Positions 1,403-58,268 of a stretch of DNA of 64,000 bases are shown here, piece after piece. Each line of letters begins with the position of its first letter. Position 1 is the first letter of the stretch. The notes under the pieces were generated by a model. That model was not told the origin of the DNA and ran no database searches. It was given only the letters and a program-made list of their open reading frames with translations. The position numbers and the translations under genes are program-made. Source of the DNA: a virus; IMG/VR virus record IMGVR_UViG_3300027710_000017, positions 29,085-93,084 of that record; one strand, given 5' to 3'.

Positions 1403-1403
1403 T

Positions 1404-1613
1404 CTACTTGGCCTCTACCTCAGCCGATGCCTCTTTAACCTTAGAGGCTAACTTGTCCTCAACAAAAGCATAGACACGCTCAAAGGCATCTCCGATGTTC
1501 TCACCATCACGCTTGTTGTCTTGGATCTCTACGTCAATTCGTAGTGACTGAAAGTTTCCTAGATTAAGAGTATAGCCTAAAGCAACCCTTACCTTAGTTT
1601 CTTCGTTATTCAT
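1404..1613 (-). CDS. Hypothetical 69-residue protein
   Basis: Unknown function. The sequence alternates a beta-like N-terminus (VRVALGYTLNLG) with a charged helical C-terminus. It sits one base from the next gene in the same leftward operon as the helicase, which argues that it is real and links it loosely to replication. No catalytic or metal-binding motif is visible. Confidence 0.65.
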   Translation of the reverse strand: MNNEETKVRVALGYTLNLGNFQSLRIDVEIQDNKRDGENIGDAFERVYAFVEDKLASKVKEASAEVEAK

Positions 1614-1625
1614 ACCCGTTTCTTT

Positions 1626-2156: not shown

Positions 2157-2163
2157 GAAAAAC

Positions 2164-2616: not shown

Positions 2617-2634
2617 TTTTCTCCTAAACTAATA

Positions 2635-7700: not shown

Positions 7701-9129
7701 GGATAACCTCATAGAGCTTAAACTGAATTCCCTTATTCAGATAATTTCTAACAATGCTTTTTTGATTATAAGAGCTAAAGGCTAGATCATAGTCAAATAG
7801 CGACAGTGAGCCAACCCCAGCTAAAAGTTGTCCAACTGGCATTCCACTATTTCCTAAGTCTGATGCGGATTTAGTAATCTTAAATGACTCAACCTTATCG
7901 GAAAGGTCAACGGCAAGCCTAGGAGATAGCTCAATTAGATCTAGGGTGGAATCTACCTTGTTCATTGTATCTACGACTATGCGTATTCCAGAAATCTCGT
8001 CGAACTCTCTATACTTGATAAGTCCGTCTACTGGATCTACATAGGATGCTGGATCAGTTAGGTTTGTTGCAAAATTTGTAAGCTTGTCTACCTGAGACTC
8101 TTCTAGGTACCAGCCATATTCTGGAACAAAAACCTCATAGTCTTCAGTAGACTCTATCCAAATATGATACGTACCAATGTCTGTATCTGTTTCTTTAATT
8201 AGATAAGCATAACCATTTGTGGACGTCTCTGGCAAAAAGCTTTCTGTGTAATACTCGTCTGCTTTTACAAAGATATCTCGATAGCCTTCTGGCACCATAA
8301 GGCCATAGGACAACTCAACATATCCGTCAGACTTGATAATTGCAGATCCGTCTTGCCTTGTTGAGCTAAAGTCAAAAGAAGCAGCGTCTACCCAGTCATT
8401 ATCTTTTAGGGTTTGAACCTTCCACTTTACTGGCGTAGTTTTATTTTGATCTCCAAAAAACGGATCGTTAAAAGTTCCGCCATTGCCAGAAAATGTTCCA
8501 AAGTCTATATCTCCAACATTAGTTTGCATCTTTACAACTAGCCTATTTGCTGGCAGGATATTTTTATACACTACAAATGGAGAGGCATCGTCTATGAAGT
8601 ATTGTCCATTAATTAATTTATTTGCAATACCTCGCTCAATTCCATTCTCAGTTCTGTAGGATGACCAGTACTTAAACTGATCTTCTTTATGTGACATGTA
8701 ATATCTAGGTCTTCTAATCATGTCAATGTTAGTGAAATGAGTATACTTTCCAGGAAAATATCTAAGCTTGTTAATTCCAGAGCGTGGCCTGAATTTTCCA
8801 AAACAATCTTCTAAGGAATAAAGTAGTCTTTCTTTTTCTTTTTTAGGAGTAAAAAGAATTGGAGTTTCGTCATCATCCTCAAGTCCGCCGTCTACGACAA
8901 CGTCGGCATCAGTAGCGTTTGTATAAAAATTACCAGAGTCATTTTCGTCAAATGAGGTTACTGCTAGGCCATAATCGCTAGATGGGCCCTCTGATGGACG
9001 ATATCTGTAGTTACCAATCTTTAGAATGTTTTCTGCAATATTCATATTCCATTCTGCAATGACTGCAGAATTGCTTTTAATTGTAGAGGATGTTTCTAAA
9101 TGATTTAATAATTCATCATCTTTAAACAT
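4768..9129 (-). CDS. Large tail hub / minor tail protein, 1453 residues
   Basis: Second gene after the tape measure, the usual place of the tail hub or tail-associated protein. The middle part (SLAEVLNDIAVSTQSAMFFDEY) and the C-terminal about 100 residues (ENLMSWMISKIMKP, QLGDIVKINYK, FVVYQIEYSG) resemble siphovirus hub and baseplate proteins. An inserted beta-rich region near residues 1000-1150 looks like a lectin or LamG-type sandwich. No peptidase motif was recognised. It probably forms the central tail tip, contacts the host and gates DNA passage. Homology at the family level is tentative. Confidence 0.75.
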   Translation of the reverse strand: MFKDDELLNHLETSSTIKSNSAVIAEWNMNIAENILKIGNYRYRPSEGPSSDYGLAVTSFDENDSGNFYTNATDADVVVDGGLEDDDETPILFTPKKEKERLLYSLEDCFGKFRPRSGINKLRYFPGKYTHFTNIDMIRRPRYYMSHKEDQFKYWSSYRTENGIERGIANKLINGQYFIDDASPFVVYKNILPANRLVVKMQTNVGDIDFGTFSGNGGTFNDPFFGDQNKTTPVKWKVQTLKDNDWVDAASFDFSSTRQDGSAIIKSDGYVELSYGLMVPEGYRDIFVKADEYYTESFLPETSTNGYAYLIKETDTDIGTYHIWIESTEDYEVFVPEYGWYLEESQVDKLTNFATNLTDPASYVDPVDGLIKYREFDEISGIRIVVDTMNKVDSTLDLIELSPRLAVDLSDKVESFKITKSASDLGNSGMPVGQLLAGVGSLSLFDYDLAFSSYNQKSIVRNYLNKGIQFKLYEVILDVSGIDYYIPIKTMYSEEIPDLTSADRSVTLELRDLFFYFESKLAPQTFIQNASLSYAVSMILDSIGFSNYVFKRVSDLSEPIIPSFFVAPDKSLAEVLNDIAVSTQSAMFFDEYNNLVVMSKEYMLPSESERELDLTLYGSKDFSVDGQISNKTTSTKLANIIEIASQKDEVFNGGKINYSTRYIQRSYGTIRQASMIDKDKVWIYKPALLWEVAGSENTKSVNDVVNNQSNFVLGAIPLSTTLTDQLPVIVNGAIQNNTMDLGESVYWITRYNGYFYANGEIIKYDAVEFEIPGVERTVLQENINGEITADTSVSGGIGRVWISSVRDYQKYFAKLPFNGKMYPTGRVRIYAEPNYVITDNETRLAEGAVAKHGREQFGTKAVVHSAGLPSYWSDNQNVRGCVMDGTQLFGKPSTQSVTSGAAGINNSLAQNSSRTGILKNLLTYRPELENISEDSIAPGTMQSSAFVFTGPAFTTSDVPTDFISYVYKPLDDKYKHFGSRMRIIGKVENNVNSIQTPIGSSSYFLGSASNPSQPSIISGASGGLGILVNPETNNGYFFEIAALTEDNINSYDNADEIHNVLFYKVAKPATGPTTKAIPVKLYGGLAQILVDDGNFTGQYRMANEAKPTVYDLAVEYQDIGASRKFFLYINNKLIATVVDEDPLPIHKNMCLFVRGGARAMFENVYAISNNYSQNTSYALDTPISDVFLQDEAGMNESFRKYGLTGAIKATYLSGISSSEPPRYNIYFEEFGTIMREAAYFNIRYDKAYPALYAKLSPTFNKMQGYTTSGFMATAYGAEFLIFNATDTALSLDETSNNYLRIQGVTFTQQSTHELTVDEYFDKNSDLSSTQFDSQQLVSYTAKAKQEYQDIKVSRLTHGKKDFTLDAPYIQSHDDAENLMSWMISKIMKPRKSVGLTVFGMPILQLGDIVKINYKDSDNVDQVALEADRFVVYQIEYSGTTEGPEMSIFLSEVA

Positions 9130-9828
9130 TTACACCTCTTCCAGCGTTACCGATATGTTCCAAAAATCATGGGTACTGGATCCACGCTTAACAACAGTAT
9201 AGGAAAAATCTGAAATAAACATTTCAATCAGTTGATTATAGTGTGGCAAATGCGAATATGTTTCACTATTGTTTTCAAAAACAGAATACTTGTCGTATGC
9301 AAGGTACACCCAAAAAGAACCTTTGTAGTTTTCGTACCATCTCAAAATTTCTACTCCACCTGCGCCACCATCTGTTGTATACTGCTCAGAAGAGTTTGTT
9401 GTATTAGGCAAGATTATGAATGATCCATCGTCTCCTGGCTCTCTAGATCCTACAGTATTTAAATCTGACTTACCAGTTGCCTGGTCAAAATTTGGGCTTA
9501 GCTTATGAGACCTAGATGGTAGCATATTCCAAGAAGTAGAAACTGTTAGTTTATCTGCAATATGATAAGACCTCATCCTACCATTTACCATTCTTTTTCT
9601 ATTCTCAATTCTTGTTGGGGTAAACTCTATTGAGGACCTGTTGTCGTCAGATAGAATTAGAAATTGTCCTAGGCTACCTGTTTGAGCATTAAAGCTTGTC
9701 TCAGAGTTAACCTCAAGACCGCTGGGGATGTATAGTCCATCTACAAGCGTGCCAGGGTTTTCAGACCATAGCATAGCTTGTGGTCTTTGATATTTTTTAC
9801 GGCCTAGCATGTAGTCTTCTGTAGCCAT
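9130..9828 (-). CDS. Distal tail protein-like (Dit) minor tail protein
   Basis: 232 residues, lying between the tape measure and the hub, where siphoviruses carry the distal tail protein that caps the tube and joins it to the tip. The sequence is beta-rich with a C-terminus (MFISDFSYTVVKRGSSTHDFWNISVTLEEV) typical of tail-tube-fold proteins that read out structural data in this position. The TAATG overlap at its start couples it to the tape measure. Assignment rests on gene order plus fold-like features. Confidence 0.65.
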   Translation of the reverse strand: MATEDYMLGRKKYQRPQAMLWSENPGTLVDGLYIPSGLEVNSETSFNAQTGSLGQFLILSDDNRSSIEFTPTRIENRKRMVNGRMRSYHIADKLTVSTSWNMLPSRSHKLSPNFDQATGKSDLNTVGSREPGDDGSFIILPNTTNSSEQYTTDGGAGGVEILRWYENYKGSFWVYLAYDKYSVFENNSETYSHLPHYNQLIEMFISDFSYTVVKRGSSTHDFWNISVTLEEV

Positions 9829-12800
9829 TAAAACTTATTCCCCCTAATCCTTTGAGAGTCAATCTGCTTAATTTGTCCAATAACGGATCTAGCAATCTGA
9901 TCTGCATTGGCATCTGTTTTAACATTAACGTTTACCTCATAATTATACACTGAATCGCTGGAATGTGTTCCATTATTTATTGCTTTCATCTTGTCTACAC
10001 CATACTTTTCAACGGCATATTTGCGAACGACAAATTCTCCTGGAGTAAGCATTGCAGGGACGGTATCCGTACCCTTAGGCTCAAATATTCCACCATCACC
10101 CATGTATGGAACAGGGCCTCCCTGAGACATCATTAGCTTAGCTCCCTTGGCATTGTACGGAGTGTTGCCTGTTGGAGAGGTAAACTTATCTCCAGTAAGT
10201 GGATCTCTAAAGACTATTCCAGTATTTACCCTAGCATCTGCCACAGGAACAAAATACCCACGAGTAGGATCGTAAGTTACCGACTCTCTGGTGGATGTGG
10301 CAGGAGCTGGTGGAAGAGCTGCTGACAGAGTCTTTGACCCAAGACTATTCCAGTGAGACACAATGTCTTTAACAATATCTAGGGCTGCTTGCATGGCATC
10401 CTTGAAGGGTTGGCTAGAAGTAACTGCTAAGTCAATGCCGTTTTTTATCTGTGTCCATTCAAGCTTTGTTTTGTTAAGGACTGTTAGGGCTTCGGTAGCT
10501 ACAGCAAGATTTGCCTCAGCAATTCGAACAGCTTCTGCTGCTGGCTCTAACCTTGTTTCTTCAATCTTAAAGATTTCTTTTTCAACTCTTAGAATTTCTG
10601 CTTCTAGCTCTGTTCTAGATTTACCGCCAGAAGACCTAAGGTTGCTTAGGGCTCCTTGCCTTGACGCCTCTAGCATATCTCTCTGAGTTCCAATAGCACC
10701 CTGAGCAGATTGAGCCCTCATCTCCTGGGCTGCTCTTGCTGCTGCTGCAATGTCTCCCTGGCTTAGTGCGTCGGCAAGAGAGATCTGTGTTTTCTGCTGT
10801 GCGGAAATTGCATCGTTTGCCTTTTCAATTTTATCTAGCGCATCTAGTCTCTTGTCGTACTTTTCATTAACAGAATCTTCTTGCCATTCAATTTCTTGGA
10901 TACCAGCCTGAAGGTTATCCATTTGGAATTGTAGTGCAGCTATTTCTCTTTGAGCCTGGGCCAATATTTCTCTAGCACCCTTTTGAGCCACACCAGCAAT
11001 ACTAAAGTCTTTTAGCTTAATTTCCATATCAATCTGAAGCTTTTCTTCTTGCGCAGAGAAGGCTTCCATTGCTTTGTTAAAGCCATCATCAAAAACAGAT
11101 TGCTTAAAGTCAATGTCGTTAATTACTTGCTGCATACGTGTAGCAAATTCTGCTGGCAGTTCTGTTATCATACCGCTCAAGAACTTTTGGTATGTTTCTG
11201 AAAGTGTTGAGTCGAACTCAATTGCTGCTTGCTGTAACTCTGTAAACTTAGTATTGTTTGTGCTAAAAGCATTCTTCATTGCGCTTTCGCCTGAAGCCTG
11301 CTGAATATCTTCAATCAGCTGGAGTCTTGATGCTACTAGGCCTACCTTAGCTGCTGAATCATTAGCATCCTTTCCTAACTGCTTAAGCTCTTTAGAGCTT
11401 ATGTCTTTTGAGGCAATTGCAGCTGCAACGGCTGGGTCCTCTATAGCCTTCAGAGCTTCTGCCACAGACATACCTGCAGCAACTAACTTGTTGAATGCCG
11501 TTGACTGGTTCAGGGCGTCTCTGGAAGCTTCTTTAAGTCCAACCTGGAACTCTCCCAAGGCAATTTCATTAAATACCTTGGCCATGTTTTTGCCAGCCTC
11601 TTTAAGTGTAACGATTCCATTCTTAACTCTTATAAACTTATCTTGAATATCCTTATCAAGTCCTAGTAAGTAATCAATGAAGGTCCTGTTAACTCCTCGG
11701 CCAATTAGCTGCTGCTCAATACCCTTAAACTGCTTCATGTTTTTATTTCCGCCGAGCCACTTATTAAGCTCTGTAATTCCACCAGTTGCTTTTACTGCTG
11801 CTTCACGTATTTCTCTAAGCCTTTGCAACGGCTCTTCGTAAGGGTCTTGCTTCGCTCCGCCTGTAGGTGGAGTTTTAGCATTTGGATCAAAGTCTCCGAG
11901 GGTCATATCTGCATTTCCAGTTTCAGCTTTTTGGAAAGACATAGCTTCTGCATACTCTTTTAAGATTATAGGGTCTGGAGAGTTTGCCCACGCAGCACCT
12001 TCTGATTTTAACCAGGCCTGAACTTTTGGATCGTGAACTGTTTTGACTGAGCTTATTATTGTTGCATACGTTCTCAAGAAGATTTCTTTGCCCTCTTCTG
12101 TGAGTTTTTCAAACTCTGCTATGTCCTGACCAACTAAGTTTAAGTTTTCTGCACCGACTATATCTGCTACAACTTTAACAGTAATAGGGCCCTTTATTTT
12201 ATCTATTTCATCATACATTCCCTGAAGTTTTTTAGCTGCAGTTGGATTTTTAATAAAGAAGTCTACTGCAAAAGCAGCATCTTTTCCAGATGCCTGAGTT
12301 ACCTTTGTATAAAAGTCAATTATATCTGCAGCTTCTTTTGAAGTTTTTGCCCCGTCAACTTGAGCAACAAATGAGGAAACGACGCTATCTATTGGCTTTC
12401 CAGTTACTGGATCTGTAAAAAATTGAGTCATTGCAGATACTTGATTTGCAAAGGCTCCGCCATATTTTGTAATAATATTTACAGTTCTTGTTTGTGTTGA
12501 TTCTGGCATTGAAAGAATATTGACAAGCTGTACTGGGTCAACCTCTTTAGATGCAAGCTGCATTGTAACTAGATACTTTTTCTCTGGTGTCAGATTAGAC
12601 GATTCCAAATTCTTTAATCCAAGAGCTGCAACTGCTGCCATTGGAGTATCTTTATATGCAGCTGTGACAGAAGTTTTTGCACCAGTCATTAAGGCATCTT
12701 GTAATTCTGGACTTGCTGTTTTGTAGCTCTCCATAATTCCAGTAGTTAGTTTTTGATTTTGAGTTAAAATATCTACTCTTGCATCTTCTAATTCTTTGAG

Positions 12801-34850: not shown

Positions 34851-36428
34851 TTATGCGGACAAGTCTCCGAAGACTACCCAAGTATTTTCTGCTCTCTTAA
34901 ACATTGTAGCAGATGACCACTGGGTACGTAGCTTAAGTCCAGGAGTAGAATTAACTGTAACTCCTGCTGCTCCAGCAATAGTAACCTGACCAGCACCTGT
35001 CTGTAGGATATCGATAGATGTTCCCACTGGATATGCAACAGATGCATTTGTAGGGATGGTTACAGTCACACCAGTAGCTGAAGAGACCTCTACGAGCTTG
35101 TCACGGTCTGTGAGAACCGTTGTGTAGGCACTAGTCTGTGCATTGATTTCAGTAAGTGATGGAACACCCTGCTTTACCTGAACTCCATCAGAGAATTCTA
35201 CTCCTCCGAGTCTTAGAGTATCATATCCAGCGTTTGTCAAATCTACAGTGTTAGATACTGGGTGTGGAACGTTTGATACAAGCTTCCACTTTTTGCCATC
35301 GCTTACGTCACGGAATAAACCAGAGTGCTTGTGGTCTCCCTCAGTTCCTCCAGCTTCACCTGTAGCAGCAAGGAATCCAACATCGACAGTGTCTGTTGTC
35401 CAGTTTCCGCTAGACATGTAAATTAGTGGGTCTGATATAGCAAGATCAGTTGCGTTTACGGTTGTAGTGGTTCCACCAACAACCAAGTTTCCAGTAATTT
35501 CAAGATTTGCAGTAGTGGTAGTTCCTGTAAATGTTGGATCTGCCAAAGGAGCCTTAGCGTCTAGCTGAGTCTGAATATTAGAGGTTACGCCATCTACATG
35601 GTTTAGCTCTGCAGTTGAAAGGGTTGCTCCGTCAAGAATGTTTACTTCTGCAACTGATGCAGTTACATCAATAACATCTGCTAGATTAACTGTTACATTG
35701 TTATCGGCTGCAGAAATAGTCTTGTTGGTTAGGGTTTCAGTTCCAGTTTTGGTTGCAAGAGCTGTAGTATCTGCAATTCCATGAACGTTAGTTGTATCTG
35801 AGTTGTGGGTGCTAAGATTACCATCTAGAGTAGTGTAGTTTGAGCCAACAGTGCTGGTTAGTGTTGAAAGGTCGCCCTCTAGGTCACCAACGGCGGTCTC
35901 TAGATCTCCAGCTCTTGTCTCTAGTAATCCAATGTCAGTGGTATTAGCTGTAGATGCTGTTTCTACAACACCAAGTCTTGTTTCGTGATCCTGAGCTTGA
36001 TCTCCTAGACCTTCGATGGAATCATTAACTAGTCCAATGTCATAGTTAACACTGGTAAAGTAGTCTGGATTATTATTAATTGCTGCTGCAATATCGTTTA
36101 TGGTTGGGACAGATCCCCAGGTAGTCCATGCCCCTGCAGAGTCATCGATGATGTTTCCTAGTTGATTTAATGGAACGTTTACAGTGCCATCTAGAGTAGC
36201 AACACCATTTGCAGCGGCCCTCTGGGTTAGTGGAATGTAGTCATCGATGGTTCCACCAAGTTCGGTTATTGTTAGGAAGTACTCTAGGTCTGACCAAGGG
36301 TTAGCTCCATCACCAATCTTAAATCTTCCAGTGTCGGTTTCAAAACCGATTTCACCAGCTTCAAGAGTTGGGTCTGCCGATGTCCACTGTTCCGCAGTTC
36401 CTCTGCGCTGTTGCATTCTAGTTGCCAT
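34851..36428 (-). CDS. Tail fibre protein with Mtd-type N-terminal domain
   Basis: 525 residues. The first ~50 residues (RMQQRRGTAEQW, EAGEIGFETDTGRFKIGDG) match the N-terminal domain of Mtd-like phage tropism and fibre proteins, which attaches the fibre. The middle has repeated Thr/Asn/Leu helices and beta turns of a trimeric shaft. The C-terminal ~90 residues (VTIPTNASVAYPVGTSIDI, GAGQVTIAG, NTWVVFGDL) are shared with the 43.4 kb protein. It is probably the distal receptor-binding part. Confidence 0.78.
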   Translation of the reverse strand: MATRMQQRRGTAEQWTSADPTLEAGEIGFETDTGRFKIGDGANPWSDLEYFLTITELGGTIDDYIPLTQRAAANGVATLDGTVNVPLNQLGNIIDDSAGAWTTWGSVPTINDIAAAINNNPDYFTSVNYDIGLVNDSIEGLGDQAQDHETRLGVVETASTANTTDIGLLETRAGDLETAVGDLEGDLSTLTSTVGSNYTTLDGNLSTHNSDTTNVHGIADTTALATKTGTETLTNKTISAADNNVTVNLADVIDVTASVAEVNILDGATLSTAELNHVDGVTSNIQTQLDAKAPLADPTFTGTTTTANLEITGNLVVGGTTTTVNATDLAISDPLIYMSSGNWTTDTVDVGFLAATGEAGGTEGDHKHSGLFRDVSDGKKWKLVSNVPHPVSNTVDLTNAGYDTLRLGGVEFSDGVQVKQGVPSLTEINAQTSAYTTVLTDRDKLVEVSSATGVTVTIPTNASVAYPVGTSIDILQTGAGQVTIAGAAGVTVNSTPGLKLRTQWSSATMFKRAENTWVVFGDLSA

Positions 36429-51035: not shown

Positions 51036-51062
51036 AATTTATCTTCCTTTTCTAATAATCTA

Positions 51063-51091
51063 AACTTAGCATAACCTACCGACATTTATAC
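51063..51091 (-). promoter_or_regulatory. Leftward early-type promoter 1
   Basis: On the minus strand: GTATAA, 17-base spacer with ATGTCGGTAG, TAAGTT preceded by TGC. Reads into the 50.8 kb gene. Confidence 0.6.
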
Positions 51092-51211
51092 ACGGTAGAC
51101 GCTTACAACATCTAGCATTGAGATACCTTCCTTAGCTAGGTAGAATCCCCAGTTATCTCCTGGGTAAATCTCAACTTTTCCATTTGTAAAGGTAATCTGG
51201 ACTTTTTCCAT
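51086..51211 (-). CDS. Hypothetical 41-residue protein
   Basis: Starts EKVQITFTNGKVEIYPGDN and ends VVSVYRV: a small beta-rich protein of the kind seen in phage early regions. Its stop overlaps the -35 region of the next leftward promoter, an arrangement repeated at 51.63 kb on the other strand. Confidence 0.5.
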   Translation of the reverse strand: MEKVQITFTNGKVEIYPGDNWGFYLAKEGISMLDVVSVYRV

Positions 51212-51254
51212 TTTACACTTCCTTTCTATTTATCTAATCTTTCTTTATACCTTT

Positions 51255-51283
51255 AGCCTACCATCAACTACCGACATTTATGC
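51255..51283 (-). promoter_or_regulatory. Leftward early-type promoter 2
   Basis: On the minus strand: GCATAA, 17-base spacer with ATGTCGGTAG, TAGGCT preceded by TGG. Drives the 41-residue gene; divergent from the 51.43 kb promoter. Confidence 0.58.
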
Positions 51284-51350
51284 CACTTTTACAAGGTATT
51301 TCTATACAAACTTTTACCCTGTTTTTTGTAGGTATTTACAGTAATTGCGA

Positions 51351-51371
51351 CACGCCCGACGCCGTGCGCCA
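51351..51371 (+). repeat. Hairpin + GGYGCRCCA element, copy 1
   Basis: CACG/CGTG stem then CGTGCGCCA; 67 bases before the ATGTC element of the 51.43 kb promoter. Very similar to copy 2. Confidence 0.6.
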
Positions 51372-51372
51372 C

Positions 51373-51392
51373 TGTGGATAACCTGTGGATAA
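51373..51392. other. Two DnaA boxes in the early control region
   Basis: TGTGGATAA twice, 11 bases apart, immediately after cassette copy 1 and before the divergent early promoters. May bind host DnaA or be a secondary origin. Confidence 0.5.
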
Positions 51393-51431
51393 CTCCGTTA
51401 TGATAATGTTATGAAACGCCCCGATCAGCCT

Positions 51432-51460
51432 CCCCAAATGTCGGTGGTTTGTGATAGGGT
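51432..51460 (+). promoter_or_regulatory. Early-type promoter with ATGTCGGTGG spacer element
   Basis: Conserved ATGTCGGTGG starts right after the weak -35 (CCCCAA) and TAGGGT follows at 17 bases; extended TGA. Drives the 51.5 kb zinc-ribbon gene. Confidence 0.6.
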
Positions 51461-51490
51461 TTTAGTAAGCCAAAAGAAAGGAAACAACAA

Positions 51491-51631
51491 ATGGACAAGA
51501 TGTGTGTTTACTGTGAGAGCGTATTCTCACCTGATACTATTGTTTGCCACAACTGTAATGAGTATGATGGGATGATGCCCCTAGAGTCTGCCATCGACTA
51601 CCTCAACCTTGACCCTAACGACTTCCTATAA
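51491..51631 (+). CDS. 46-residue zinc-ribbon protein
   Basis: CVYCESVF...VCHNCNE forms two CxxC knuckles (residues ~5-8 and ~19-22), followed by an acidic helical end (LESAIDYLNLDPNDF). First gene after promoter 51,432-51,460. AAAGGAA precedes ATG. Role unknown. Confidence 0.55.
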   Translation: MDKMCVYCESVFSPDTIVCHNCNEYDGMMPLESAIDYLNLDPNDFL

Positions 51632-51654
51632 ATGTCAGAGGGTTATGCTAGGTT
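51626..51654 (+). promoter_or_regulatory. Early-type promoter with ATGTCAGAGG
   Basis: CTATAA, then ATGTCAGAGG in a 17-base spacer and TAGGTT preceded by TGC. Overlaps the stop of the previous gene. Confidence 0.55.
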
Positions 51655-51676
51655 GGAACTAACGAAAGGAAATCAA

Positions 51677-51772
51677 ATGATAACACTAACATTCGAAACT
51701 TGGGAAGAGTTTGATAACGCTATCGCTGGGATAGTATTATTGGAAACAGAACTAACAAAGGAGAGCAACTAA
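51677..51772 (+). CDS. 31-residue peptide gene
   Basis: ITLTFETWEEFDNAIAGIVL, acidic and helical. GAAAGGAAA upstream, stop overlapping the next start (TAATG). First of a chain of coupled tiny genes after the promoter at 51,626-51,654. Function unknown. Confidence 0.45.
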   Translation: MITLTFETWEEFDNAIAGIVLLETELTKESN

Positions 51773-51906
51773 TGACAGTAGAGGTAATGTTCAAAGATGG
51801 TTCAGCAATTTACCCTAGCTATGACCCAGAGCACCGCAAAAGTGTCCTAGAGTTTTATGCTAATCTTTTTGACAAGGGTGAAATTATTTCTTGGAAGGTA
51901 ATCTAA
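51772..51906 (+). CDS. 44-residue protein
   Basis: TVEVMFKDGSAIYPSYDPEH, then a helical end (VLEFYANLFDKGEIISWKV). Coupled by TAATG to both neighbours, which supports it as real. Unknown. Confidence 0.5.
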   Translation: MTVEVMFKDGSAIYPSYDPEHRKSVLEFYANLFDKGEIISWKVI

Positions 51907-52019
51907 TGATGTTTTATAACGGATTCAACTTGCTAATTGACCTAATCTTGGTTATAGTAGCCTATGAGGTTGGTATGTATTTCGGAACTAAGCGTGTGAT
52001 TGAAAGGAATAGCAAATGA
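51906..52019 (+). CDS. 37-residue single-TM protein
   Basis: Central hydrophobic helix (LLIDLILVIVAYEVGMYFG) with a basic tail (TKRVIERNSK). Small single-pass membrane protein, possibly acting on the host envelope. Overlaps its neighbour (ATGATG). Confidence 0.5.
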   Translation: MMFYNGFNLLIDLILVIVAYEVGMYFGTKRVIERNSK

Positions 52020-52198
52020 TGACAGAAGAAGAATTTGATGATTGGCTAGATGATGTTTATCCAACTTACCAAATTGCTGGGGTGACTCTTTACCCCTCGC
52101 AAATGCTAAAGAACTGCGACCCTATCGCATACAGAATTGCGTTGTCAGAGTGTGAAGAAAGAGAAGAAGAGTGGGAGGGTTATTTTGACAATAAGTGA
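52016..52198 (+). CDS. Acidic 60-residue protein
   Basis: EEEFDDWLDDVYPTYQIAGVTLYPSQML, highly acidic, with a CEEREEEWEGY end. Unknown; overlapped by the next gene's TTG start. Confidence 0.55.
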   Translation: MMTEEEFDDWLDDVYPTYQIAGVTLYPSQMLKNCDPIAYRIALSECEEREEEWEGYFDNK

Positions 52199-52280
52199 AT
52201 TAGAACAACTGATTTTCCAAATTGACCTAATGCTAACTGAAGATGTTGGCGAATTATTTACAACACCAGAGGAGAACTAA
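52185..52280 (+). CDS. 31-residue peptide gene, TTG start
   Basis: TISELEQLIFQIDLMLTEDVG from TTG at 52185. GGAGGG lies 5 bases upstream, which supports the non-ATG start. Helical and acidic. Unknown. Confidence 0.45.
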   Translation: MTISELEQLIFQIDLMLTEDVGELFTTPEEN

Positions 52281-52415
52281 ATGGAATTGTTTTTGATTTT
52301 TGTAATCGTTGGTATTGCTATTTTTGTTGGAACTTCTTTAGCTGCTGTTTTGTTTTTGCTACAAGAAAATAACAGACTTGGCGAAGAGCTAGAAAAGAAT
52401 CAGCCACCCTTCTAA
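52281..52415 (+). CDS. 44-residue single-TM protein
   Basis: LFLIFVIVGIAIFVGTSLAAVLF hydrophobic N-terminus then a charged coiled segment (LQENNRLGEELEKNQ). GGAG lies upstream. Likely a small inner-membrane protein; function unknown. Confidence 0.55.
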   Translation: MELFLIFVIVGIAIFVGTSLAAVLFLLQENNRLGEELEKNQPPF

Positions 52416-52420
52416 AACGA

Positions 52421-52441
52421 CACGCCCGAGAGGGTGCGCCA
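52421..52441 (+). repeat. Hairpin + GGYGCRCCA element, copy 2
   Basis: CCC-GAGA-GGG stem then GGTGCGCCA; 65 bases before the next ATGTC. Confidence 0.62.
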
Positions 52442-52499
52442 CATCCTGGGACAGATGTCAAATGTTTACGAAGAGTTTTATGATCGCCCCAAATTCTGT

Positions 52500-52528
52500 C
52501 CAGAAATGTCAGTGGTTTATGCTAAGAT
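52500..52528 (+). promoter_or_regulatory. Early-type promoter with ATGTCAGTGG, leaderless
   Basis: ATGTCAGTGG in a 17-base spacer, then TGC-TAAGAT; ATG begins 6 bases after the -10. Confidence 0.6.
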
Positions 52529-52534
52529 TATTTT

Positions 52535-52687
52535 ATGTTGAACAGAACTAATGAGGCAAGACGCAAGGCAGAGAGCCAGGCGTTGTTTCAGTCTATGCTA
52601 AAAGCTCCTCACTTGGTTCAGACCCCAAAGAAATACAAAGGTAGCCGTCAGTCTAACAAGACTAAGGCAATAAAGGAGAGCGAATGA
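52535..52687 (+). CDS. 50-residue basic protein
   Basis: Basic and Ser/Gln/Lys-rich (NEARRKAESQALFQ, KKYKGSRQSNKTKA); may bind nucleic acid. Its ATG is 6 bases after -10 TAAGAT of the promoter at 52,500-52,528, so it is both early-type and leaderless. Unknown. Confidence 0.52.
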   Translation: MLNRTNEARRKAESQALFQSMLKAPHLVQTPKKYKGSRQSNKTKAIKESE

Positions 52688-52836
52688 TTCTACAAGGCTT
52701 GATTCACTATGTATGTGAAGACTGTAATAGGTTTGTTCACTCTAACACAGTCTATTCCTATGACCTCAAAAATGTCTGTGGCAGATGTTATGCTGTTCAG
52801 GCAGGCCATCCATCAACAAGAAAGGTAAGTAAATGA
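52684..52836 (+). CDS. 50-residue zinc-ribbon protein
   Basis: CEDCNRF and CGRCYAVQAGHPSTRK make two CxxC knuckles in a 50-residue chain. Overlaps both neighbours (ATGA-type). Small zinc-ribbon proteins often act in transcription or replication, but no role can be assigned here. Confidence 0.52.
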   Translation: MILQGLIHYVCEDCNRFVHSNTVYSYDLKNVCGRCYAVQAGHPSTRKVSK

Positions 52837-52934
52837 TAGATTGGGAGCCAACAATAAATGAAGAAGCTATCCTAGCCCTAACTGGCGAAGAGGTAGTAGC
52901 AATTATGGAACTACTAGAGAAAGCAGGATACTAA
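52833..52934 (+). CDS. 33-residue protein
   Basis: IDWEPTINEEAILALTGEEVVAIM, acidic helix; coupled to both neighbours by ATGA/TAATG. Unknown. Confidence 0.45.
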   Translation: MIDWEPTINEEAILALTGEEVVAIMELLEKAGY

Positions 52935-53200
52935 TGGGATTCGCAACTGCAGTTGGACTTACAGATACAGACCTAACCCTATCAGACCAAATTAGCATTC
53001 ACTTTAGTAGCAACTGTTATCCACCTATCCCCAAGGTAATGATTCCAGTTGCAGTTGCAGCTATTGACGCTTATTGGGAAGAAGACTATGACAGACTAAT
53101 TACCCTGCCAGAAGGCGTAGAGTTTAGGACAGGTGCAACAAGCGTGTCTGCCTCACAAGCTATTGAGTCTCTTAGGCTTGACGCTTGGTGTATGGAATAG
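52934..53200 (+). CDS. Hypothetical 88-residue protein
   Basis: Reads ATAVGLTDTDLTLSDQISIHFSSNCYPPIPK and ends helical (AIESLRLDAWCME). Alternating helices, not recognised. Last gene of its operon; a hairpin with GGCGCACCA follows 10 bases after the stop. Confidence 0.55.
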   Translation: MGFATAVGLTDTDLTLSDQISIHFSSNCYPPIPKVMIPVAVAAIDAYWEEDYDRLITLPEGVEFRTGATSVSASQAIESLRLDAWCME

Positions 53201-53211
53201 ACTTGACAAGT

Positions 53212-53233
53212 CCACCGAAAGGTGGGCGCACCA
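53212..53233 (+). repeat. Hairpin + GGYGCRCCA element, copy 3
   Basis: CCACC-GAAA-GGTGG, a GNRA tetraloop stem, then GGCGCACCA; 51 bases before ATGTC. Confidence 0.65.
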
Positions 53234-53277
53234 GATCTTGATCCATAAGTCAAATTAAGAAACGTTTAAGAATGCCC

Positions 53278-53306
53278 TTGAAAATGTCCTAGGGTAATGG
53301 TATAGT
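53278..53306 (+). promoter_or_regulatory. Early-type promoter of GP88 gene
   Basis: TTGAAA, 17-base spacer with ATGTCCTAGG, then TGG-TATAGT. Confidence 0.65.
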
Positions 53307-53333
53307 TTTACCATACAAAGAAAGCAGGCCCCT

Positions 53334-54050
53334 ATGCTAATTCGTTCCAAAGACCGAAAGGTTACTAATGCAGTATCTCCAAATGGTAAAACGCCAACTA
53401 TTGCGAATACTTTTGGCCTTCCTTCTGGGAAAAGTTATTCCTGTCCTGGAGCAACAAGTGTATGCGAGAAAATCTGTTATGCAGGCAAGCTCGAAAAAGT
53501 ATTCAAGGGAGTAAAAGCTGTACTGTTGACAAACTGGGAGCAACTAAAAGACGCCAATCAACAACAAATGGAAGCGCTTATCTACCAAATGATAGATGAG
53601 TTTGAAAAGGACTGTGATAAAAAGAATGCTAAAAAACTATTTCGTATCCATTGGGACGGTGACTTTTTTAGTGATACTTACACAATGGCTTGGAAGAATG
53701 TAATCCTTGCATTCCCTCAAATTCAGTTCTGGGTATACACGAGGTCAGACTTTGCAGTTCCAATTCTTACTGGTATTGATAACTTAGCGCTTTACTTCTC
53801 TACCGATGACGACAACTGGCAACTGGCCAGTGAATTAAAAAAGACTAACGGTGTGAAGCTTGCTTATCTTGCTAACAACTTTGCAATGGGTAAAGAGCGC
53901 ATGTTGTCTATCACTGTCAAGTCCGCCATCCCATGTCCTGAAAATAATAAAAAGATTCCGCTCATTAGCGAAAAGGGTTCCGCTTGTGTTACCTGTTCGC
54001 AATGTGTCTTTGCTCGTAATGACATCCTGTTCAGTGCAAGTAAAACATAA
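53334..54050 (+). CDS. Gene product 88 family protein (GP88)
   Basis: 238 residues. SCPGATSVCEKICYAGKLEKVFKG near residues 37-60 and CVTCSQCVFARND near 215-228 are the Cys-rich hallmarks of the mycobacteriophage gp88 family (Cys/His motif and a C-terminal CxxCxxC). Middle blocks KLFRIHWDGDFFSDTYTMAWKNVILAFPQIQFWVYTRS and LALYFSTDDDN are conserved-looking. The biochemical role is unknown; a metal centre is likely from the Cys pattern. First gene of its operon after promoter 53,278-53,306. Confidence 0.8.
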   Translation: MLIRSKDRKVTNAVSPNGKTPTIANTFGLPSGKSYSCPGATSVCEKICYAGKLEKVFKGVKAVLLTNWEQLKDANQQQMEALIYQMIDEFEKDCDKKNAKKLFRIHWDGDFFSDTYTMAWKNVILAFPQIQFWVYTRSDFAVPILTGIDNLALYFSTDDDNWQLASELKKTNGVKLAYLANNFAMGKERMLSITVKSAIPCPENNKKIPLISEKGSACVTCSQCVFARNDILFSASKT

Positions 54051-54076
54051 TCTCATGCTATAGGGGCATGTAAACT

Positions 54077-54112
54077 GTAGGTCCCTTGTTATATCCTTTC
54101 TTAGGGATCTAC
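54077..54112 (+). terminator. Hairpin after GP88 gene
   Basis: GTAGGTCCCT/AGGGATCTAC arms with one G-U pair and a 16-base loop; no T-tract, so weak. Confidence 0.4.
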
Positions 54113-54118
54113 ACGTCC

Positions 54119-54157
54119 TGGCCACGACGTCAAACTGGCCACAAAAGCGGCGCACCA
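54119..54157 (+). repeat. Hairpin + GGYGCRCCA element, copy 4
   Basis: Two TGGCCA sites can pair; then GGCGCACCA, 75 bases before ATGTC. Confidence 0.6.
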
Positions 54158-54189
54158 GATTTGCCAGGGAAAGTAAAGCTTATGAAGAT

Positions 54190-54213
54190 AACGATTTCCC
54201 CCCCCGAATCGTT
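54190..54213. repeat. Inverted repeat around a C-run
   Basis: AACGATT ... AATCGTT flank a run of eight C. Adjacent to the 54.2 kb promoter; possible operator. Confidence 0.5.
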
Positions 54214-54225
54214 ATAAAAAGATGG

Positions 54226-54254
54226 TTGATAATGTCGGTGGTATAGGCTACAAT
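54226..54254 (+). promoter_or_regulatory. Early-type promoter at 54.2 kb
   Basis: TTGATA, 17-base spacer starting ATGTCGGTGG, TACAAT. An AACGATT/AATCGTT inverted repeat lies just upstream. Confidence 0.68.
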
Positions 54255-54320
54255 GGTGGTATCAACAAAAGTTGGTAATCAAATAGACAAATCCTAGCTC
54301 TGCTAGGTGATAGGAAGCAA

Positions 54321-54473
54321 ATGTCAAACGCAACCCTAACTGTTGGCTCACAGTTCACTACTCTAAAGAGTGGTGTATCAGGCACAATTCAGGAAGTAGT
54401 AGAAAACAAGAACGGCTCTTTCCGAGTCCGTCTTGATGTAAACGGACAGCCACGCTGGACTACTGTAAAGTAA
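54321..54473 (+). CDS. 50-residue small beta-barrel-like protein
   Basis: Contains SQFTTLKSGVSGTIQEVVENKNGSFRVRLDVNGQPRWTTVK, which looks like a small SH3/KOW-type barrel. The leader carries a perfect CCTAGC-GCTAGG hairpin just upstream of a GATAGGAAG ribosome site, so access to the ribosome site could be modulated. Function unknown. Confidence 0.55.
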   Translation: MSNATLTVGSQFTTLKSGVSGTIQEVVENKNGSFRVRLDVNGQPRWTTVK

Positions 54474-54545
54474 TCTAGTTAGTGTTAGTGGCGTTAGACT
54501 ACATAAAAGGGTGAATCAGAGTCTATTAGAAATACCCTGCCACTT

Positions 54546-54574
54546 TCACAAATGTCATACCCCACCCCTATAAT
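54546..54574 (+). promoter_or_regulatory. Promoter at 54.55 kb, weak spacer match
   Basis: TCACAA, 17 bases beginning ATGTCATACC, then TATAAT. Only the ATGTC part of the element is kept. Confidence 0.5.
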
Positions 54575-54607
54575 AGTAATACCCTAACAAGAAAAGGAAA
54601 ACAAACT

Positions 54608-55051
54608 ATGGCAAGAAGCCTGTCAGTAAAAATCCCAACCGCAAAACTAATCGCAGATGTAGAGCAGTCTATCGCTAAGATAGATACCGCTATTGCTGAG
54701 TATGCTGATAAGCGTAAGCAGTATGAAACAGAAATCAAGCAGTATGACCTAGACATTGTTGCTCACGCTATCAAGGCTATGTCAGACCCAAGTAATGTTG
54801 GAACAGAACACGGCTCTCTAGTTCGTGTATCAAGAGGATACAACGGAAACATTTCTGTTGATTTTGATGTTGAGGCACTTGGACTACCAGCAAAGCCAGT
54901 AGAGCCAGCAAGACCAAATGAGAAAAGTTATTTTGGTCGTGAGTATGCTACACGCAAAGAAATCCTAGAGCGTAATCTTCGTATCCTAAAGATGACAACT
55001 CAAGAGGAGATTTCAGCAAGTTCTTACTCTGCTGTTATTGACCTTATCTAA
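54608..55051 (+). CDS. Hypothetical 147-residue coiled-coil protein
   Basis: N-terminal ~70 residues form a coiled coil (LIADVEQSIAKIDTAIAEYADKRKQYETEIKQYD), then a Pro-rich linker (LPAKPVEPARPNEKS) and a basic C-terminal helix. Unknown family. Preceded by AAAAGGAAA. Single-gene operon with its own promoter. Confidence 0.6.
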   Translation: MARSLSVKIPTAKLIADVEQSIAKIDTAIAEYADKRKQYETEIKQYDLDIVAHAIKAMSDPSNVGTEHGSLVRVSRGYNGNISVDFDVEALGLPAKPVEPARPNEKSYFGREYATRKEILERNLRILKMTTQEEISASSYSAVIDLI

Positions 55052-55119
55052 CTTAGGGAAAGACCCCTGCCTAGCAGGTATAACGCCCGAAGCAACCTAA
55101 GCAAGTTGTAAAACTGCTT

Positions 55120-55188
55120 CCACTCCCCTCCAAAAGCTGAAGGATCTTTGATCCACAAATACTGTGAGGGGAAAAAGTGGGCGCACCG
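55120..55188 (+). repeat. Hairpin + GGYGCRCCA element, copy 5
   Basis: CCACT-CCCCTC pairs with GAGGGG-AGTGG over a long loop, then GGCGCACCG; 61 bases before ATGTC. Confidence 0.58.
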
Positions 55189-55242
55189 CATTTTCGTTAC
55201 CAAACTGTTATTTATGATGACTAATTATTTTGCCCCGAATCG

Positions 55243-55271
55243 TTGACAATGTCGGAGGGTAGCCCTATAAT
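55243..55271 (+). promoter_or_regulatory. Early-type promoter of the DUF932 gene
   Basis: Perfect -35 TTGACA, 17-base spacer with ATGTCGGAGG, perfect -10 TATAAT. Confidence 0.75.
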
Positions 55272-55310
55272 TAGACTATTAGTAATCCAACCCTAAAGAA
55301 AGTAGATAAC

Positions 55311-56321
55311 ATGGCACATTTGCTAGAATCCGTAAACGGAGAAACCGCATTTGCTTCACTCAGAGAGCCAGCTTGGCATGGTCTAGGAACTGTATTCACT
55401 GAGGAAGTTTCAACAGCCGAGATGTTGAAGAAAGCTAAACTAAATAACTGGAATGTTCGCTTGGAAGATGTAGAGATTCCTACTGGCATGGATTCAGACA
55501 AGGGCTACTCTTTCGTAGTTCGTGATAACCCATTCACTAAGGGCAACAAGGACATTCTTGGTGTTGTTGGTGAGCGTTATGTTCCGCTTCAGAATGAGGA
55601 CTTGTTTGATTTTGCTGATAACATTCTAGACGCTGGTGGACGCTGGGAAACCGCTGGTTCCATCAAGGGTGGTCGAGTTGTATTCGGTTCTCTAGCTCTT
55701 GAGCGTGAAACAGTTCTTGACCCTAACGGCGTATCAGATAAGGTAAACAGTTATCTTCTAGTAAACACTAGCCATGACGGCTCTATCGCAATTCAGGCAA
55801 GCATTACACCTGTCCGAGTTGTATGTGCCAACACTCTAAACTTGGCACTTGGTAATCGTGGTCGTGGTGGTTCGGTAAAGCAGTCGTTCAAGATTCGCCA
55901 CACCCAAACTGCTAACGGCAAAGTTCAAGCAGCTCGTGAGGCTCTTGGCTTGGCTAATGCTTACTTAGATGAGTTCGACAAGATGGCAAACGAGATGATT
56001 CAGAATGAAGTTAGCAAGGCTAAGTTTGATGAAATTGTTTTGGCATTGTATCCAAAGCCTGAGAAAGATTCTAAGGGTGCTGTCAAGAAGTGGGAAACTA
56101 AACTAGACATCATCAACGGCATTTATGTTGGACAGTATAACGACACTATTGCTGGAACAGCTTGGGGTGTTGCTAACGCTCTAACTGAAAGACTAGACTG
56201 GTATCGTTCGGCAAGGGGTGGCAACAACGAATCCATTCTTGCTTCCGCTTCTGGGTTTGACCCAATGATAAACGCTGAGAAGAATAGAATCTTCAAGGCA
56301 GTTCAACTGGCAACAGCATAA
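55311..56321 (+). CDS. TIGR03299/DUF932 phage-plasmid protein
   Basis: 336 residues. The opening AHLLESVNGETAFASLREPAWHGLGT is the hallmark of the TIGR03299 (LGT) branch of DUF932 proteins. Further family pieces are LGVVGERYVPLQNEDLFDFAD, VFGSLALERE, YLLVNTSHDGS and TPVRVVCANTLN. Members occur on phages, plasmids and integrative elements. The molecular role is not known, though they are often expressed early. Alone in its operon after promoter 55,243-55,271, followed by a hairpin + GGCGCACC cassette. Confidence 0.82.
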   Translation: MAHLLESVNGETAFASLREPAWHGLGTVFTEEVSTAEMLKKAKLNNWNVRLEDVEIPTGMDSDKGYSFVVRDNPFTKGNKDILGVVGERYVPLQNEDLFDFADNILDAGGRWETAGSIKGGRVVFGSLALERETVLDPNGVSDKVNSYLLVNTSHDGSIAIQASITPVRVVCANTLNLALGNRGRGGSVKQSFKIRHTQTANGKVQAAREALGLANAYLDEFDKMANEMIQNEVSKAKFDEIVLALYPKPEKDSKGAVKKWETKLDIINGIYVGQYNDTIAGTAWGVANALTERLDWYRSARGGNNESILASASGFDPMINAEKNRIFKAVQLATA

Positions 56322-56331
56322 GCAAAAGTCC

Positions 56332-56394
56332 TGGGCATGACTAAAAACTGCCCATCACCTATACTTGACACAGGATCAAAAACGTGGCGCACCT
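56332..56394 (+). repeat. Hairpin + GGYGCRCCA element, copy 6
   Basis: TGGGCA/TGCCCA stem, then GGCGCACCT further on; 52 bases before ATGTC. Confidence 0.58.
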
Positions 56395-56439
56395 GGATAA
56401 CGAAACTATAACAAGTTTACGATACAGTTTAAGAATCCC

Positions 56440-56468
56440 TTGAAAATGTCGGTGGCTACTGGTAAAAT
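56440..56468 (+). promoter_or_regulatory. Early-type promoter at 56.45 kb
   Basis: TTGAAA, 17-base spacer with ATGTCGGTGG, TGG-TAAAAT. Confidence 0.7.
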
Positions 56469-56492
56469 CTAGGTATAAAGAAAGGAATTCAA

Positions 56493-56615
56493 ATGGACGA
56501 GCAAGCAGAAGAAATTCGTGAGGCATTAGCTGAGTACTATGCCAACCCAGAAGACTACACCCTAGAAGACTTCGAAGAAATCTTTCAGGATAGGGACCCA
56601 TTCGAATTTCTATAA
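56493..56615 (+). CDS. 40-residue acidic protein
   Basis: DEQAEEIREALAEYYANPEDY: highly acidic helical protein, perhaps a nucleic-acid mimic, though only charge supports this. AAAGGAA lies upstream of ATG and its stop abuts the -35 of the next promoter. Confidence 0.5.
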   Translation: MDEQAEEIREALAEYYANPEDYTLEDFEEIFQDRDPFEFL

Positions 56616-56637
56616 TGTCGGTGGTTCATGGTAAAAT
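56609..56637 (+). promoter_or_regulatory. Early-type promoter at 56.6 kb
   Basis: TCTATA, 17-base spacer with ATGTCGGTGG, TGG-TAAAAT. The element overlaps the previous stop codon. Confidence 0.62.
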
Positions 56638-56661
56638 CCAAATAGACAACGAAAGGAAAAC

Positions 56662-56859
56662 ATGTCGCATTTACTAAATAACATTGGATACGTTTCTTAT
56701 GATGGAAACTATGGAGCAGAAGCGGACGTACTTGTGTTCGATACTGATTCACTTACCCTGCAGCAATGGGAAACCCTAGGTGAGCTAGATGACAACTCTA
56801 GGTATGACTATGTCGAAGCTATTTTTGCAGGTAAAGACCTATCTGAATGGGAGGGCTAA
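56662..56859 (+). CDS. Hypothetical 65-residue protein
   Basis: SHLLNNIGYVSYDGNYGAEADVLVFDTDSL, then an acidic helix; not recognised. Own promoter at 56,609-56,637, AAAGGAAAA site, TAATG coupling to the next gene. Confidence 0.58.
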   Translation: MSHLLNNIGYVSYDGNYGAEADVLVFDTDSLTLQQWETLGELDDNSRYDYVEAIFAGKDLSEWEG

Positions 56860-57212
56860 TGTTAGACGTATTGGAAATGGATTACAGGATTGATGAGTAT
56901 ACCAATGAGGCAAAGGGCATTGCTTGGGATACATGTCATAAAATCTATGTACTCATGGACGAGGAGCAAGTAGCGCTTCAAAGAAGTTATGGCTATGGTG
57001 ATGAGAATGACCCAGATAGCCTAATCACAAGTGAGCAGATGACTGGTGATGAAATGAGAAAGCAAGTCATGGACTGGTATCAGAAGTCTTGTGGCCTAAG
57101 ATTTATTTCAGCTGTTTCAACCGACACCAGGTTTGGTGATGACGGCTGGGTTCACATCATTAGTCAGTTTGAAGATACTGATGAAGATGAAGATGAGGAT
57201 GAAGACCTGTAG
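56859..57212 (+). CDS. Hypothetical 117-residue protein with Asp/Glu tail
   Basis: ATG at 56859 chosen because GGAGG precedes it and it overlaps the upstream stop. Globular part (DYRIDEYTNEAKGIAWDTCHKIYVLMDEEQV), then an acidic run of Asp/Glu at the C-terminus. Unknown. Confidence 0.6.
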   Translation: MLDVLEMDYRIDEYTNEAKGIAWDTCHKIYVLMDEEQVALQRSYGYGDENDPDSLITSEQMTGDEMRKQVMDWYQKSCGLRFISAVSTDTRFGDDGWVHIISQFEDTDEDEDEDEDL

Positions 57213-57267
57213 CGCATTCCCTTACTTCCTTTCTGGAATGTGCTACCGTCCTAGCTATGACGTAAAA

Positions 57268-57290
57268 CTGGCTTTCCAGCAGGCGCACCA
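57268..57290 (+). repeat. Hairpin + GGYGCRCCA element, copy 7
   Basis: CTGG-CTTT-CCAG then GGCGCACCA; 64 bases before ATGTC. Confidence 0.6.
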
Positions 57291-57347
57291 CAATAATGGA
57301 TCAGTGTCAACAGTTTAAGAAGAATTAAGATTACTCCCCGAAACCCC

Positions 57348-57376
57348 TTGATAATGTCAGTGGGTAGTAGTAAAAT
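57348..57376 (+). promoter_or_regulatory. Early-type promoter at 57.35 kb
   Basis: TTGATA, 17-base spacer with ATGTCAGTGG, TAAAAT. Drives the GTRNLT operon. Confidence 0.7.
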
Positions 57377-57404
57377 GATACTACCCGAAAGAAAGGAACC
57401 CCCA

Positions 57405-57905
57405 ATGGGAACCAGAAACCTAACAGTAGTAAAGAACAAAGCAGGACAAACCAAGATTGCTCAATACGGACAATGGGACGGATACCCAAGCTATTCAGGT
57501 ATTCAAGCTCTAGAGTTTCTAAGAGATGAAGGCAACCAAGCCTTACTACAAGCTAAGCTAGACCTTGTCCAGTTTGTTGGTGATGAGGAAGTAGATACGC
57601 TGTATAAGCAGTATGAGTCTACTGATTGGGAGAATAAGGAATTCCTAAACGCATACCCTGGCCTACACAGAGATACTGGTATTGACATCCTAAAGGTAGT
57701 TGCCAATGCTACTGCCACTATCAAGAGTGTAGATAATACAGAGTTTGCTAAGGATGAACTATTTTGTGAGGGTGTCTATGAGGTAGACTTCTCTACTAAT
57801 AAGTTTATTACTGTCTATGACAACAAGGTTGTTGAGTATGACTTGGATTCCTTGCCTAGTGATTCGGATTACCTAGCAGCGTTTGAGGTGGAACAGCTTG
57901 TTTGA
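57405..57905 (+). CDS. GTRNLT-type conserved phage protein, 166 residues
   Basis: Opens GTRNLTVVKNKAGQTKIAQYGQWDGYPS, a widely conserved phage and plasmid N-terminus (GTRxLTxV...AQYGQWDGYP). Function unknown. ATG at 57405 chosen: AAAGGAA is upstream and the leader begins after -10 TAAAAT at 57,371-57,376. First of about eight overlapping genes in the operon. Confidence 0.72.
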   Translation: MGTRNLTVVKNKAGQTKIAQYGQWDGYPSYSGIQALEFLRDEGNQALLQAKLDLVQFVGDEEVDTLYKQYESTDWENKEFLNAYPGLHRDTGIDILKVVANATATIKSVDNTEFAKDELFCEGVYEVDFSTNKFITVYDNKVVEYDLDSLPSDSDYLAAFEVEQLV

Positions 57906-58077
57906 TAATCTAGATACCAAGTATGCCACAGGAAACATCGCAAAGGATGTTGAGTTTATCAAAGATAACCTTAGTATTGATGACAAAGAGTTCTTTAGAA
58001 GGGCTATGGCTAACATAATGTCTGAGGGTAATGCTAGAATTGACCTACTTACTGGAGAGGAACTGGAACAGCTATGA
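57898..58077 (+). CDS. 59-residue helical protein, TTG start
   Basis: From TTG at 57898, preceded by GAGGTGG. The product FDNLDTKYATGNIAKDVEFIKDNLS is helical. Overlaps the previous stop by 8 bases. The start is uncertain (an upstream TTG at 57883 also fits). Function unknown. Confidence 0.48.
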   Translation: MFDNLDTKYATGNIAKDVEFIKDNLSIDDKEFFRRAMANIMSEGNARIDLLTGEELEQL

Positions 58078-58268
58078 TGAAACTAACAAGCACAGACCTA
58101 AAGACTTGGCAGGTAGAGTATTCTGCAGCCTACTGGGTAGAAGCTACAAGTGAAGATGAAGCTATTGAAAAGGCTATGGAACAACACGCTGATTTGCCTG
58201 ACGGTAGCTGGGAAGCAATGATTGACCCCTATGATAGCAACAACTTCAATACCCTAGGAGAAAAGTAA
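58074..58268 (+). CDS. Hypothetical 64-residue protein
   Basis: KLTSTDLKTWQVEYSAAYWVEATSEDEAIEKAMEQH resembles short phage proteins with a Tyr/Trp-rich beta core and an acidic helix. It shares the beta-then-SEDEAIEKA layout with the 58.7 kb protein. Unknown role. Two ATGs are possible (58074, 58077). Confidence 0.55.
   Translation: MMKLTSTDLKTWQVEYSAAYWVEATSEDEAIEKAMEQHADLPDGSWEAMIDPYDSNNFNTLGEK

Follow-up and report, generated by a model that had tools for sequence, protein, structure and literature searches.

Clustered promoters of an environmental virus match actinobacterial RecA-NDp damage promoters and probably connect a gene block to the damage response of the host

Results

The virus record IMGVR_UViG_3300027710_000017 of IMG/VR (93,084 bases) contains, in the 64,000-nucleotide stretch analyzed here (bases 29,085-93,084; the window, whose coordinates are used throughout), a real family of promoters. 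About 13 in number, they are laid out like the damage promoters of the host, so that the virus, judged by its sequence, probably turns on a block of genes through the host's damage alarm. We put a probability of about 0.78 on the reading that an actinophage uses RecA-NDp-type promoters together with host PafBC and the ordinary sigma-A RNA polymerase. The promoter type itself is already known in bacteria, where RecA-NDp denotes a LexA/RecA-independent damage promoter regulated by PafBC (PMC8223512, PMC6789036), with the consensus tTGTCRgtg, 8 nt, TannnT (PMC5656591). The phage motif and its gap coincide with this consensus: the 8-nt gap to TAnnnT is kept in 12 of 12 annotated sites, and the TGTCRgtg element appears as exact TGTCRGWGG in eight sites, with one change in two and in degenerate form in the others.

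Exact matches to the composite pattern TGTCRGWGG-N7-TANNNT number eight in the whole record, all on the plus strand and all between 51.4 and 57.4 kb of the window, with none outside this region; the pattern read backward gave no match, and dinucleotide shuffles a mean of 0.04 with a maximum of 1 (n = 300). An initial annotation had listed 12 sites here, all of which were recovered at their coordinates on re-reading. It had assigned the 10-mer ATGTCRGWGG to all of them, which holds exactly for eight, the two leftward sites (ATGTCGGTAG, one mismatch), 53284 (ATGTCCTAGG) and 54552 (ATGTCATACC) being degenerate copies. A hexamer TAnnnT, rather than the TAnaaT originally given, stands exactly 7 bases past the 10-mer in 12/12 sites, and TGn precedes it in eight of them, as the annotation had noted for many. 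When the last T of the -10 element is taken as -7, the start is predicted 7 bases after the -10, and at this point all 12 sites have a pyrimidine at -1 and an A at +1 (YA), a feature that had played no part in their selection and has a chance of 0.136 per site (0.136^12 = 4e-11). The looser pattern ATGTC-N12-TANNNT-N5-YA matched 17 times in the genome versus 0.56 times in shuffles (maximum 3); 13 of these matches lie between 51085 and 58018, the latter position being a site that the original list had missed (TGTCTGAGG gtaatgc TAGAAT tgacct A). Each predicted start lies 0-60 bases ahead of an open reading frame (ORF). The sequence of L5-type stoperators differs from this motif.

The element had been described as part of the spacer of a two-hexamer promoter, directly following the -35 hexamer. 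Such a hexamer is present in five of the 12 sites (53284, 54232, 55249, 56446, 57354), the others carrying CCCCAA, CTATAA, CCAGAA and similar sequences. Since the -35 hexamer is thus not conserved, the architecture is that of a -26 element plus an often extended -10 element, the former replacing the -35 rather than filling a spacer. The idea that better -35 hexamers offset degenerate -26 elements was discarded, as the classes did not differ (Fisher p 0.46). The sites and the genes named with them are as follows.

51056..51085, minus strand: promoter, ATGTCGGTAG-gttatgc-TAAGTT; predicted start A 51056; ORF 51035-50826 (minus)
51248..51277, minus strand: promoter, ATGTCGGTAG-ttgatgg-TAGGCT; predicted start 51248; ORF 51211-51086 (minus)
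51438..51467, plus strand: promoter, ATGTCGGTGG-tttgtga-TAGGGT; predicted start 51467; ORF 51491-51631
51632..51661, plus strand: promoter, ATGTCAGAGG-gttatgc-TAGGTT; predicted start 51661; ORF 51677-51772
52506..52535, plus strand: promoter, ATGTCAGTGG-tttatgc-TAAGAT; predicted start 52535 coincides with ATG and would give a leaderless mRNA; ORF 52535-52687
53284..53313, plus strand: promoter with weaker -26 element, ATGTCCTAGG, -35 TTGAAA; predicted start 53313; ahead of the GP88 gene
53334..54050, plus strand: GP88-family protein (PF17338), 3' of the 53284 promoter
54232..54261, plus strand: promoter, TTGATA-ATGTCGGTGG-tataggc-TACAAT; predicted start 54261; ORF 54321-54473
54552..54581, plus strand: promoter resembling the CC class (see below), ATGTCATACC-ccacccc-TATAAT; predicted start 54581; ORF 54608-55051
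55249..55278, plus strand: promoter, TTGACA-ATGTCGGAGG-gtagccc-TATAAT; predicted start 55278; ahead of the DUF932 gene
55311..56321, plus strand: DUF932 protein (PF06067), 3' of the 55249 promoter
56446..56475, plus strand: promoter, TTGAAA-ATGTCGGTGG-ctactgg-TAAAAT; predicted start 56475; ORF 56493-56615
56615..56644, plus strand: promoter without -35, ATGTCGGTGG-ttcatgg-TAAAAT; predicted start 56644; ORF 56662-56859
57354..57383, plus strand: promoter, TTGATA-ATGTCAGTGG-gtagtag-TAAAAT; predicted start 57383; ORF 57405-57905
58018..58047, plus strand: thirteenth promoter, within the preceding ORF, ATGTCTGAGG-gtaatgc-TAGAAT; predicted start 58047; ORF 58074-58268

Several further matches were set aside: 60627 (ATGTCATAGG..TACAAT), where +1 is not A; 52772 (ATGTCTGTGG..TATGCT), which misfits the start-site pattern and is located within an ORF; and five more outside the block (-7618, 26765 and 47302, and in reverse 49958 and -6141), which are without the RG[AT]GG half and are probably chance matches.

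Conservation was traced in 80 related IMG/VR loci found with the GP88 protein. They contain 214 composite sites versus 0 for the reversed pattern, and a gap of 7 accounts for 214 matches versus at most 38 for any other gap; 207 sites lie on the gp88 strand and 7 on the opposite one. Among the long contigs, 27 of 31 have the motif, confined to one part of each and mostly to a single strand. A profile was also built from 172 unique sites that fit TGTCRGWGG-N7-TANNNT. At positions not fixed by this pattern it has A at -2, A or T at -1, a TG separated from the -10 by one base, and an A at +1; the -35 positions are near background, A at -2 excepted. YA at -1/+1 was found in 130/175 sites, the maximum among all tested offsets.

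With the right half of the element left free, a second class, TGTCAGACCC, appeared whose gap, extended -10 and start are like those of the first. Its form TGTCAGACC, with variants such as ATACC, is common in the relatives, and this CC class, as opposed to the GG class above, also follows the gp88 strand (274 versus 12 opposite). Usage varies by contig: L043 has almost only GG, L075 and L080 only CC, and many have both, interspersed. Virus loci with TGTCAGACCC include L021, L022, L025, L064, L075 and L080, the class being dominant in some relatives. Of the two sites originally called weaker, 53284 is indeed so, and 54552 is not simply weak, as it resembles this second class.

The composite motif also occurs in bacteria. 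Across 40 actinobacterial genomes, which except for G001 were not chosen for the motif, it was matched 131 times versus 5 for the control; 20 actinobacterial genomes chosen for one copy gave 96 versus 1, and 10 non-actinobacteria likewise chosen gave 12 versus 3. The genes behind host GG copies include recA (L313), uvrA (L324, L325), xseA (L320) and radA (L359) as well as DUF222 (L353, L360) and DUF6504 (L311) genes. For the CC class, 39 genomes gave 15 matches versus 2, and copies of this class in actinobacteria precede radA (L366), a DEDD exonuclease gene (L373), DUF6504 (L362) and DUF222/HNH genes; L364, L365 and L367 are further host loci with this class. As radA is preceded by GG in one genome and by CC in another, the sequences suggest a single regulon that reads both classes. 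Two genomes lacking a PafC match had no composite motif, which is a weak hint. In the class of a 1.3-Mb motif-bearing Micrococcales metagenome-assembled genome, the PafC domain exceeded the cut-off in 57 of 60 genomes.

Discussion

In the known system, PafBC is inserted between promoter DNA and sigma-A domain 4, with PafB reading the -26 motif and single-stranded DNA (ssDNA) acting as activator (PMC11804915). Transferred to the virus, the aaTGTCRGTGG element would be the -26 element and would be read by the DNA-binding domain of PafB, while the helix-turn-helix of PafC would hold region 4 of the housekeeping sigma factor, rendering the -35 hexamer dispensable. Host RNA polymerase with sigma-A would then open the DNA at the -10 (often TGnTAnnnT) and start on the A 7 bases downstream. 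PafBC is a standing host protein switched on by ssDNA, and for this reason the appearance of ssDNA would activate or strengthen expression of the rightward block and the two leftward genes, whether that ssDNA stems from damage, host DNA breakdown or phage replication itself. From the position of the block and its gene types we infer that its timing would be early. More tentative, and in our estimate somewhat short of an even chance, is the extended notion that an actinophage lineage has placed an early or delayed-early block under an ssDNA-sensing host activator, such that ssDNA made during infection serves as a timing signal for the phage, and the damage response that a cell mounts to infection would feed the phage program.

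The host side of this scheme would be actinobacterial, as WhiB genes in 14 of 24 relatives and the nearest cultured phages point to such hosts. The head maturation protease has its closest cultured relatives, at ~41-42% identity, in the Streptomyces phages Faust, BillNye, Evy and Jay2Jay; BillNye and the related Bmoc are classified in Stanwilliamsviridae, and the GP88 and DUF932 families are found mainly in actinobacterial phages.

A number of observations weigh against the PafBC reading. No WhiB gene is present in this virus itself, and several host genomes with a PafC domain have no exact motif match. Motif clusters of either class were absent from the analyzed parts of the genomes of cultured relatives (Streptomyces phages Bmoc and BillNye, Mycobacterium phage Vanisoa, Rhodococcus phage NiceHouse, Arthrobacter phage Bumble and Microbacterium phage Pickles13). 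Some sites with a good -35 and an extended -10 might fire by sigma-A alone, and ClgR was once reported to recognize the same host promoter, a RecA-independent one, according to a report cited in PMC5656591.

The initial annotation had envisaged a dedicated recognizer. The fixed phase to the -10 and predicted start, the restriction to one block and the preservation across related viruses support this, and at the sequence level the motif is absent from the rest of the genome with its structural and replication genes, as had been anticipated for late genes. The recognizer had been sought in a phage activator or repressor or in a modified polymerase; in light of the RecA-NDp/PafBC match and the copies at host repair genes, most likely it is none of these. 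A MotA-like activator or a repressor encoded by the phage could nonetheless bind the 10-mer, the likeness to RecA-NDp being convergence, and there is precedent in T4, where AsiA/MotA replaces the -35 contact via sigma appropriation (PMC6755090). The lack of the motif in cultured relatives would fit such a factor, and most small early proteins of the virus have no family match, leaving room for a DNA-binding protein. We regard this as unlikely, because the host promoters before recA, uvrA, radA and xseA match in sequence, gap and start class, and because the second class TGTCAGACC is likewise shared with host repair genes. In addition, no WYL domain (PF13280) was detected in the 93-kb record (E<=1) or in 31 relatives (E<=0.1), the search having detected positive controls in known genomes. 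Homologues of AsiA or MotA did not turn up in general protein scans, which were not aimed at them.

Assigning the element to another host factor appears very improbable to us. The ClgR report speaks for it, and other WYL activators, of which SiwR would be an example to consider, are reported to operate in mycobacteria (PMC10693628); on the other hand, deletion of pafBC abolishes P1-driven recA transcription (PMC5656591), and the sites bound by PafBC are very similar to RecA-NDp (PMC8223512). We give equally little credence to ordinary sigma-A promoters that were recently copied, with a spacer kept by descent and no recognizer. TGn before many -10 elements and the -35 hexamers in 5/12 sites would suit this idea, but sequences between and around the elements vary from site to site, the same motif stands ahead of host repair genes, and in diverse contigs the flanks and -35 of the 172 unique sites vary around a conserved element, TGn, -10 and A at +1.

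Compared with actinobacterial RecA-NDp/recA P1, where PafBC acts by sigma adaptation, the phage promoters have the same element, the same gap to TAnnnT and a weak or missing -35; they differ in their many copies within one block, an aaTGTC instead of tTGTC flank and the second CC class, and their binding by PafBC is putative. T4 middle promoters (AsiA/MotA) are alike in that the -35 contact of host sigma gives way to an element near -30/-26, but the T4 activator is phage-encoded, whereas here it appears to be the host's. In temperate phages coupled to LexA/SOS, the host damage response controls phage genes through repressor release. Control by host damage would be shared with these, the promoters here being of an activator type, and no integrase or repressor was recognized among the scanned proteins, a part of the protein set of the virus. 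The early block of Bmoc (Samistivirus) resembles ours in having one promoter per small early gene, a related DUF932 gene, an extended -10 (TGcTAGACT) and a GC-rich upstream element, yet it is without a conserved TGTC -26 element. Specifically, Bmoc (L211) carries at 937-9992 its own TGcTAGACT promoters, which lie 3' of GC-rich GGCCGCCCCGGCC and start at ...CATCGAA. Since the cultured relatives tested lack the motif and Bmoc has a promoter family of its own, use of damage promoters looks particular to this environmental lineage.

No description of phage promoters of the PafBC kind was found in the literature covered, which mostly excluded subscription journals; what this literature holds on PafBC and phage concerns WYL regulators of defense systems and the bacterial damage response. 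The proposal connects actinophage gene control, in a concrete and testable way, with a host damage activator that has been understood mechanistically only recently. Thanks to the many virus copies, the motif is better defined, with AA before TGTC, TGn and an A at +1, and the second class has come to light. If the proposal is true, PafBC may both sense actinophage infection and aid it, and phage growth should differ with pafBC status.

Genome Context and Elements near the Promoters

The sequence has a G+C content of 40.5%, and a nucleotide search with window 48-60 kb against known phages gave no match. The motif block lies near the right end and comprises mostly small rightward genes, those for GP88 and DUF932 among them. 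Leftward genes encode the large and small chains of ribonucleotide reductase, a RecA-like protein, DNA polymerase III alpha and a DnaG-like primase; the portal and head maturation protease genes are leftward as well. The protein encoded at 34851-36428 (minus strand) has an Mtd_N domain (N-terminal domain of Major tropism determinant; E 3.5e-14).

A short G+C-rich element, GGCGCACC, stands at 51364, 52434, 53225, 54149, 55180, 56386 and 57282 (plus strand), so that seven of the promoters have it some 50-80 bases before them. Elsewhere in the window it is almost absent; its first two copies read GTGCGCC and are preceded by CGACACGCCCGA. In the relatives, GACACGC, GGCGCC and similar GC-rich words are enriched upstream of promoters, and GGCCGCCCCGGCC of Bmoc is similarly placed. 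Candidate roles are those of a terminator, a binding site or a folding element. GGCGCACC was considered as part of the promoter system and left out of it, because it accompanies only 5/175 sites of the relatives. Between the divergent promoters, two tandem DnaA-box-like sequences, TGTGGATAAC and CTGTGGATAAC, occupy 51372-51394 (plus strand) and might possibly mark a replication origin or a DnaA-controlled region; TTATCCACA is found upstream of 33/175 promoter sites in the relatives.

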